From the NCBI RefSeq assembly GCF_003932495.1, contig NZ_QZMT01000010.1, positions 1 to 64,000 of the forward strand: a stretch of 64,000 nt of DNA, read 5' to 3'. Numbering within the stretch: position 1 is the stretch's first letter; every line of letters begins with the position of its first letter. Below the pieces are notes generated by a model that worked only from the letters and a program-made list of their open reading frames with translations, was not told the origin of the DNA and did not search any database. Shown here one piece after another: positions 48,144-52,566 of this stretch. The position numbers were made by a program, and so were the translations under genes. Origin of the DNA: Guyparkeria sp. SCN-R1. Its GTDB lineage: Bacteria > Pseudomonadota > Gammaproteobacteria > Halothiobacillales > Halothiobacillaceae.

Positions 48144-48211
48144 GTAGGAGCGCCTTCAGGCGCGATGTCATCGGGCTGCGGTTTGCGTTTCGCGGCTAAA
48201 GCCGCTCCTAC
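48144..48211. repeat. REP element (paired hairpins)
   Basis: GTAGGAGCG at 48144 pairs with CGCTCCTAC ending at 48211. Inner hairpins are CGCCTTCAGGCG and GCGGCTAAAGCCGC. It is the intact counterpart of the REP interrupted by the IS110 element near 51320/52505. It lies between prfB and lysS. Confidence 0.85.
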
Positions 48212-48343: not shown

Positions 48344-48364
48344 GGTGGGGTCTCGTTTGCGTTT

Positions 48365-48387
48365 CGCGGCTGAAGCCGCTCCTACGG
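48365..48387. repeat. partial REP
   Basis: CGCGGCTGAAGCCGCTCCTAC, the right half of the REP type seen at 48144-48211, just after the prfB stop codon. Confidence 0.6.
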
Positions 48388-51295: not shown

Positions 51296-51329
51296 ACGCC
51301 GCTGGGGCCTGAGCCGACCGTAGGAGATT

Positions 51330-52280
51330 CTATGTCTCCCCACAAGGGATTCTCGGCACGTAGTCAGTCTGTTTCTGCATCAAACTGAAAGCGACCCGAG
51401 CCAGTTTTCTCGCAAGGGCGACCAACGCTTGGGTGGGTGCTAATCCTCTTGCGACGTGTCGCTGGTAGAAGTCCTCCCACGCCGGCTGTCGTTTTGCCTG
51501 CATGGCGGCAAGATAAAGCAGTCGGCGTGCCTCGGGATCTCCTTGGCGGGTCAACCGGCGTTTGCCGGACTTGATCCCCGAATCCCGAACCCGCACATCG
51601 AGCCCAAGAAAGGCGATGAAGGCATCGCTGTTGCGAAAGCTTCCTCGATGGAACAACGTCGTCAGACTCGCTGCGGTAACGGGACCCACGCCTTCGATCG
51701 CCTGGCAGCGTTTGGCATCAGCCTCCCAGCCGGCCTCCTTGAGGCATTGGCGGATGTGCTTCTGGATCAACTGATCCGTCTGCTTGAGCTGGGCGACGAT
51801 CCGATGGAGGCTCGCTTTGAGGGTTGGAATACCCGCAAGGCTCTGCTGGAGGGCGACTCGGACCTGTACCAGCGTGGCTCGTCGCCGGAGCAGTGTTTGG
51901 AGTTGCCGGTAGGCTTTGCCCGGCGGGCTCCACGGGCGCAGCTCATCAATCTCCCGAGACAGATAGCGCAGCAACAGGCGGGCATCACCGGCATCCGTCT
52001 TGGCTCGTGTGCCAATGCTGTCGCGATACCGGTTGAGCCGGTAGCCGTTGATCAGAAAGATCTCATGCCCACGTCGATGCGCCTCGAGAGCGATTTCGAG
52101 ATGGTAGTTGCTGGTGGCTTCAAGGGCGATTCGGACTGACTCGCCCAGCGAATCGAGCCATTCGCCAATGGCCTTGGGCGTGTTCTCGATGGACTGGTGC
52201 CCACCGTCATCGGTGGCGATGTCGAGACGAAACTTGCCGACGTCGATGCCGACATGGGGGCGTTGAACTGGCATTGCCAT
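51330..52280 (-). CDS. IS110 family transposase (DEDD/Tnp_20 recombinase)
   Basis: The 316-aa product has an N-terminal RuvC-like DEDD domain (HVGIDVGKFRLDIA with the first Asp; ALEATSNYHLEIA with a Glu; TDAGDARLLLRYL with two Asps). The C-terminal Transposase_20 domain contains GVGPVTAASLTTL and SGIKSGKRRLTRQGDPEARRLLYLAAMQAKRQ, including the Ser region used in catalysis. It is full length and looks intact. Its stop codon is only about 3-5 bases from the element's end. Confidence 0.95.
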   Translation of the reverse strand: MAMPVQRPHVGIDVGKFRLDIATDDGGHQSIENTPKAIGEWLDSLGESVRIALEATSNYHLEIALEAHRRGHEIFLINGYRLNRYRDSIGTRAKTDAGDARLLLRYLSREIDELRPWSPPGKAYRQLQTLLRRRATLVQVRVALQQSLAGIPTLKASLHRIVAQLKQTDQLIQKHIRQCLKEAGWEADAKRCQAIEGVGPVTAASLTTLFHRGSFRNSDAFIAFLGLDVRVRDSGIKSGKRRLTRQGDPEARRLLYLAAMQAKRQPAWEDFYQRHVARGLAPTQALVALARKLARVAFSLMQKQTDYVPRIPCGET

Positions 52281-52504
52281 GACAGGACCTCCGAGCTAAC
52301 TTGGAAGGGCTTGTCGGGGTCTCACCGAGCGCTGGCTTGCCAAATATCGTCGGTCTCGAGCCGATGGATTCCTTATCGGCGCTTGAAGGTGAGGGGTGGG
52401 ACGAGGTCTCCTACCGTCTGTGCTCTTTCATTTGAGCCAGAAGCGTCTTCTGTCCCTCCACCCCGACAAGCCCAGTTTTTGACTTGCCGGGGTAAACATA
52501 CAAG
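52281..52504 (-). ncRNA. candidate bridge RNA region of the IS110 element
   Basis: IS110-family recombinases are guided by a bridge RNA encoded in the non-coding end, upstream of the transposase in IS621. This 224-base stretch is in that place and has strong structure: GGGCTTGTCGGGGT (52307-52320) is the perfect inverted repeat of ACCCCGACAAGCCC (52460-52473). A direct repeat CTTG[TC]CGGGGT also occurs (52310 and 52483). The loops that would pair to target and donor cannot be read without folding. Confidence 0.6.
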
Positions 52505-52566
52505 CGCCTTCAGGCGCGATGGGATCGGGTGCCGCCTTGGCATTTCGCGGCTAAAGCCGCTCCTAC
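52505..52566. repeat. right part of the REP split by the IS110 element
   Basis: CGCCTTCAGGCG and GCGGCTAAAGCCGCTCCTAC are the same inner hairpins and right arm as in the intact REP at 48144-48211. The matching left arm GTAGGAG is at 51320-51326. The radC stop codon lies inside its right end. Confidence 0.8.

Follow-up and report, generated by a model that had tools for sequence, protein, structure and literature searches.

The element, its ends and its REP sites

The window, meaning the whole 64,000-nucleotide stretch of Guyparkeria sp. SCN-R1 DNA that was analysed, carries on its minus strand an insertion sequence of the IS110 group with half a REP on either side.

51327..52504, minus strand: IS110-group insertion sequence, 1178 bp including one copy of the CT core
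51330..52280, minus strand: DEDD transposase/recombinase gene, 316 aa
51320..51326, minus strand: CTCCTAC, REP head and right half of the target, ancestrally downstream of dacB and intact in the same-genus genomes G009 (L100) and G002 (L101)
52505..52516, minus strand: CGCCTGAAGGCG, REP hairpin and left half of the target, ancestrally upstream of radC and intact in G002 (L091) and G009 (L089)

The 316-aa protein matches Pfam PF01548 (DEDD) and PF02371 (Transposase_20), and its only PDB matches are the transposases of IS621 (8wt6; phmmer E 6e-22, 81 bits) and ISCro4 (9t56; E 3e-25). In the phmmer alignment, D13, E54, D96, D99 and S234 are placed opposite D11, E60, D102, D105 and S241 of IS621, which are its five catalytic residues.

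We read the left junction, in the orientation of the element, as CGCCTGAAGGCG-CT-TGTATGTTT and the right junction as ACATAGAAT-CT-CCTACGG. The ends are identical in the element's own and same-genus copies and strongly conserved among relatives. The core, which is AG on the plus strand (51325-51326 and 52503-52504), is present at both junctions, and this is why the ends carry a two-base uncertainty. A sequence-only reading had proposed an IS110 element at 51327-52504 with ends fixable to within two bases; the Pfam domains, the phmmer matches and the end positions bear this out, the ambiguity being the CT core.

As in the IS110 group, we found a DEDD and Transposase_20 protein with a catalytic Ser, a long non-coding left end (224 nt) upstream of tnp and a short right end, with the ORF ending only a few bases short of it, and a CT core at both ends accompanied by a short ATA/TAT subterminal pair and no long terminal inverted repeats. 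The marks of the IS1111 group were not found: the guide region lies upstream and not downstream of tnp, and in place of long (7-17 bp) subterminal inverted repeats the matching pair spans only about 5 bp. The element is thus a typical, well-preserved, IS621-like member of the IS110 group, belonging to a recently discovered programmable class and aimed at REPs, and not a new class. In 37 of 41 elements, the next base outward from the subterminal CATA/TATG pair at one end is complementary (C-G or A-T) to that at the other, which lengthens the short subterminal repeat known from IS110.

The genome (2.42 Mb in 68 contigs) has at least three copies of the element, counted as three left and three right ends, and the copies other than the one in the window sit at contig ends. 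G010, of the same genus, has at least three left ends, the matching pieces being 98-100% identical. The element is 98-100% identical to copies in another species while the flanks there are about 82-93% identical, which, on this comparison of sequences, suggests recent movement. The right part of the third copy (L002:1-207, contig C33 of G000) is 93% identical to the window copy with the same right end, and the genome may therefore hold two element lineages.

REPs of the GTAGGAGCG type are found at 48144-48211, where an intact pair is present, at 48356-48385 and at 52549-52566, often as inverted pairs. Genome-wide there are at least 42 empty CTCCTAC-type REPs, which fall by their stem into two sub-types, AAGCCG and AAGGCG.

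Element-free genomes of the same genus have undisturbed REPs (GTAGGAGCGCCTTCAGGCG) at both the radC locus (L089, L091) and the dacB locus (L100, L101), with flanks that match those of the window right up to the core. Judged from these alignments, these REPs are genuine empty sites, and they locate the insertion point without recourse to the rejoined window flanks. The comparison also indicates that the two flanks are halves of two different REPs, one downstream of dacB and the other upstream of radC, both intact and unlinked in same-genus genomes (radC and dacB lie at 0.24 and 1.76 Mb in the complete G009). The ancestral neighbour of radC is at contig end C28, with a right end (RE), and that of dacB at contig end C12, with a left end (LE); as C28 and C12 carry complementary neighbours, we count two insertions, one per REP, with flanks exchanged in the assembly.

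Reciprocal exchange between two copies would leave the same complementary neighbours on C28 and C12, and a real IS-IS recombination therefore keeps some plausibility, though we think it unlikely. Both loci have the same orientation in two complete relatives, so that one exchange would split the chromosome, and the flanks of the third copy (C5/C33) remain collinear with relatives. Furthermore, the contig ends overlap by exactly 55 bases, as is characteristic of short-read de Bruijn assembly with k=55. A short-read misjoin through a collapsed repeat is the more likely origin of the dacB-IS-radC adjacency. The first reading had taken the element to be inserted exactly in a REP that rejoined flanks rebuild; the rebuilt sequence is right and matches 48144-48211, but the single insertion at this adjacency does not stand, since flanks from two REP loci make the rebuilt REP no evidence for it. 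The conclusions on the element itself are independent of how the junction arose.

Structure of the non-coding left end

The 224 nt upstream of the transposase gene contain a perfect 14-bp inverted repeat, GGGCTTGTCGGGGT (52460-52473, minus strand) with ACCCCGACAAGCCC (52307-52320), and a partial direct repeat, CCCCGGCAAG (52483-52492) and CCCCGACAAG (52310-52319), both as previously described from the sequence. Compared with shuffled sequences, the fold has a z of -2.2 for the 224 nt and of -3.9 for the central 191 nt (0/200 shuffles).

52310..52492, minus strand: predicted bridge RNA region, in the order 5' stem-loop, target-binding loop, donor-binding loop, arm A'
52483..52492, minus strand: arm A, CCCCGGCAAG, pairing with arm B to form the 5' stem-loop, a 13-pair hairpin of -23 kcal/mol
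52461..52470, minus strand: arm B, CTTGTCGGGG, common to two alternative helices
52310..52319, minus strand: arm A', CCCCGACAAG, pairing with B to enclose the whole RNA (the 14-bp inverted repeat)
52398..52456, minus strand: target-binding loop, closed by GGGAC/GTCCC, with an inner stem-loop TCTG..CAGA
52321..52393, minus strand: donor-binding loop, closed by CTCACC/GGTGAG
51340..51345, minus strand: candidate -35, TTGTGG, spaced 17 bp from the -10 once the ends are joined in a circle, at the same position in most relatives
52495..52500, minus strand: candidate -10, TATGTT, of the junction promoter

In the predicted folds, the inverted and direct repeats are three arms, from which either a 5' stem-loop or a stem around the whole RNA can form. 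The predicted RNA ending before A' is 175 nt long and folds as 5' stem-loop, target loop and donor loop, which is the domain order of IS621. Arm A, and hence the A:B stem-loop, is present here and in some distant relatives; the Pseudomonas elements are without A and have the enclosing stem only.

A MAFFT alignment gives a thin RNAalifold consensus, with a covariation term of only -0.52, since differences in length put the target loop out of register; arm specificity was tested instead by swapping partners between relatives. The B:A' arms pair better with their own than with a swapped partner (0/10,000), as do the arms of the target-loop stem (1/10,000), and the inner helix of the donor loop, GCGC/GCGC, keeps pairing through two-sided changes. 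An Rfam scan of the region returned no matching family, and a search of E. coli DNA with the left end gave no match, hence no direct alignment to IS621 DNA.

The predicted energies of the A:B and B:A' states, -86.1 and -86.7 kcal/mol, are almost the same, and covariation of the B:A' arms is seen among relatives. It is conceivable, although we hold it to be improbable, that A, B and A' act as a switch in the junction transcript, with A:B giving the bridge RNA and B:A' the full-length transposase mRNA, each transcript being either guide or message; B:A' would then enclose the guide loops in the message form. A translation switch by the same arms was rejected, as the SD is equally paired in both predicted RNA states.

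On the joined circle, the best -35/-10 pair of most relatives is 17 bp apart with a -10 of TATGNT in the left end. This candidate promoter is clear in several relatives, strong in L032/L033 (-35 TTGACC) and weak here, where 27/200 shuffles are as good. The joined-end sequence is absent from this genome and from every element in 47 others; a 16-base copy of it, CATAGAATCTTGTATG, in a Pseudomonas genome (G468, L120:1501-1516) has no element around it and is probably due to chance.

Guides and their targets

In the IS621 scheme, the RNA carries the left target including the core (left target guide, LTG), a stem-loop, and the reverse complement of the core and right target (right target guide, RTG) (PMC11208160, PMC11208158), and discontiguous pairing of the right donor guide (RDG) has been described for the same element (PMC11208158). 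We found candidates for all four guides in the two loops.

52442..52450, minus strand: LTG, GAAGACG-CT, matching the REP target GAAGGCG-CT at 8/9 bases and covarying with the target in relatives
52408..52414, minus strand: RTG, GTAGGAG, 7/7, the reverse complement of CT-CCTAC, switching together with the target 4 times on the tree
52367..52374, minus strand: left donor guide (LDG), AAGGAATC, pairing with the left donor ATAGAATC (GAATC plus one G:T), conserved in relatives and analogous to the IS621 LDG (PMC11208158)
52336..52347, minus strand: RDG, AT..GCAAG, pairing discontiguously with CTTGTAT, its CAAG invariant in relatives

Within GGGAC...GTCCC, GAAGACGCT is followed by TCTGGCTC...GAGCACAGA and then by GTAGGAG, which is the order of the guide scheme. 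Taken in this order, the LTG and RTG match 15/16 bases, and none of 3000 dinucleotide shuffles did as well (p 0.04 for the LTG alone, 0.016 for the RTG alone). The LTG is mismatched to most occupied targets, having A where most REPs have G. The donor pairings GAATC and CAAG are present, and the donors are nearly invariant in relatives, leaving no covariation to score. By a reading of the sequence, the A after the RTG and the C after the RDG could form the first handshake pairs with donor T7 and target G7.

Protein searches located relatives in 38 of the 298 Pseudomonas genomes and, here and there, in other gammaproteobacteria; a plasmid search by protein at E 1e-30 found none. They are about 40-55% identical in protein, and their guides change along with their targets. 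Their left end reads CTTGTATG and their right end, with few exceptions, ATAGAATCT, and ends this constant allow the targets to be read directly. Three elements with one ambiguous end or a truncation (L060, L071, L073) were excluded from the guide statistics and L054 is unscored; the LTG pattern anchored L034, L035 and L057 wrongly, an error that depresses the observed score and so counts against the claim. Over 21 distinct guide pairs, left targets agree with their LTGs at an average of 5.5/7 bases compared with 3.3 after permutation, and right targets with their RTGs at 6.95 compared with 6.37, with 0/20,000 permutations as good in either case. CCTAC targets go with GTAGGAG guides and CCCAC targets with GTGGGAG (one GTGAGAG) in 35/35 elements, and on the protein tree the target and RTG traits undergo 4 changes each, changing together, although the independent pairs, 3 to 4 in number, are too few to give a formal pairs test any power. 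L037 and L038 share the target CTCATCG (guides CGACGAG and CGATGAG), and their left targets, TCCCTGG and TCCTTGG, differ by one base, at exactly which their LTGs differ. This natural covariation, a comparison across sequenced elements, provides the strongest evidence for the guides. In L054, a Pseudomonas relative, about 200 extra bases (2428-2655) lie between tnp and the right end and include the REP-like GGCAAGCCGGCCTCCCAC, possibly comparable to the ssr9 segment of ISPpu9.

These data bear on an alternative that could have been entertained for ISPpu9-like elements before 2024, namely that the protein itself chooses the REP and the upstream region, as a structured 5' UTR, serves only to control translation of the transposase. 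In ISPpu9, the 244-nt 5' UTR forms a structure that probably takes in the RBS (PMC8450116), and the SD is mostly paired in every fold predicted here; a protein-only model, however, predicts no covariation of guides with targets, and UTR and guide roles are not mutually exclusive, so that we judge the protein-only account very unlikely. A chance capture of a REP fragment in the left end, without a guide role, is hardly credible even in a genome with at least 42 CTCCTAC-type REPs, given two matches in LTG/RTG strand order flanking a stem-loop, the recurrence of matches at the corresponding position in relatives whose targets differ, and the covariation. Collectively, the bridge RNA reading is strongly favoured: both target guides were found, in the right order within one stem-loop, where the sequence-only reading had made its case depend on a loop pairing with the REP target, and guide order and covariation support its proposal of a REP-targeting, IS621-like element.

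The guides may also account for which REPs are occupied. About 29 of the empty REPs in this genome end AAGCCG-CTCCTAC and 13 end AAGGCG or AAGACG; G010 has 13 and 15, respectively. All six readable left flanks (three in each genome) are of the AAGGCG/AAGACG type, and none is of the AAGCCG type that makes up 29/42 empty sites here; the statistics for this preference are modest (joint hypergeometric p about 0.007 over both genomes, by hand arithmetic). At -3 the LTG has an A, which would pair properly with AAGACG (the C5 copy) but would be opposed by C in AAGGCG and by G in AAGCCG. The choice would be explained, we infer, if the A:C mismatch is tolerated and the A:G one rejected. For the targets GAAGGCGCTCCTAC, GAAGACGCTCCTAC and GAAGCCGCTCCTAC, the guide model predicts that A-type would do at least as well as G-type at -3, both far above C-type, and that activity on CTCCCAC targets would be lost, a loss that changing the RTG to GTGGGAG should reverse.

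Proposed mechanism and comparison with known systems

The left end very probably encodes a bridge RNA that guides the element into one class of REPs, the element moving as IS621 does. As far as sequence can attest, the ends, the exact empty sites, the complementarity and covariation of guides and targets, and the conservation of catalytic residues and RNA helices are in place; the circle, transcription, RNA length and strand exchange are ascribed by homology. The ends would join into a circle, creating a promoter that would drive transcription of the left end; the product would be a bridge RNA, about 175 nt long, with a 5' stem-loop, a target-binding loop carrying the LTG GAAGACGCU and the RTG GUAGGAG, and a donor-binding loop carrying the LDG AAGGAAUC and the RDG AU..GCAAG. 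The DEDD-Ser recombinase and this RNA would insert the circle at the CT between the REP hairpin CGCCTGAAGGCG and the head CTCCTAC, keeping the hairpin whole and severing the head.

That IS110-family elements target REPs has been recognized since 2003-2006 (PMC1525189 and references therein), and that RNA guides members of this family, since 2024 (PMC11208160, PMC11187229). This study adds a fully assigned member from a Halothiobacillaceae host with exact empty sites, a correction of the locus, and a guide-level account of the use of one of two co-existing REP types. With its ends, guides and empty sites defined, the element supplies a diverged bridge recombinase of compact size (316 aa), and its relatives, with repeatedly retargeted natural guides, are useful for deriving pairing rules.

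Compared with IS621 of E. coli (PMC11208160, PMC11208158), the element shares the DEDD and Ser recombinase, the CT core, an upstream bridge RNA ordered 5' stem-loop, target-binding loop and donor-binding loop (177 nt in IS621, a predicted 175 nt here), insertion next to a REP's GTAG head, and the right donor CTTGTAT (from residues listed in PMC11208158); for the joined-end promoter of IS621 it has a candidate counterpart. It differs in a clearly diverged protein, another REP and other guides, an RTG match of 7 bases compared with 4, and the extra B:A' stem that can enclose the whole RNA.

ISPpu9 and ISPpu10 of P. putida (PMC1525189, PMC8450116), compared by description, are likewise IS110-family elements inserted in REPs at a constant position, with a repeat of 2 bp (AG for ISPpu9). 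ISPpu9 also has a long structured 5' UTR, but it is accompanied by two sRNAs that were not identified here: asr9, which is antisense, and ssr9, encoded downstream in most copies. ISPa11, an IS1111-group element in a P. aeruginosa REP (PMC11187229), shares the REP target and an RNA guide (seekRNA), whereas its guide region lies downstream of tnp, with reversed guide order and subterminal inverted repeats, and the region here lies upstream. The IS110 elements of Pseudomonas, Stutzerimonas and other gammaproteobacteria (L018-L078) have near-identical donor ends, the same guide layout and mostly REP-like targets, and differ in protein (about 40-55% identity) and in their mostly CTCCCAC targets.
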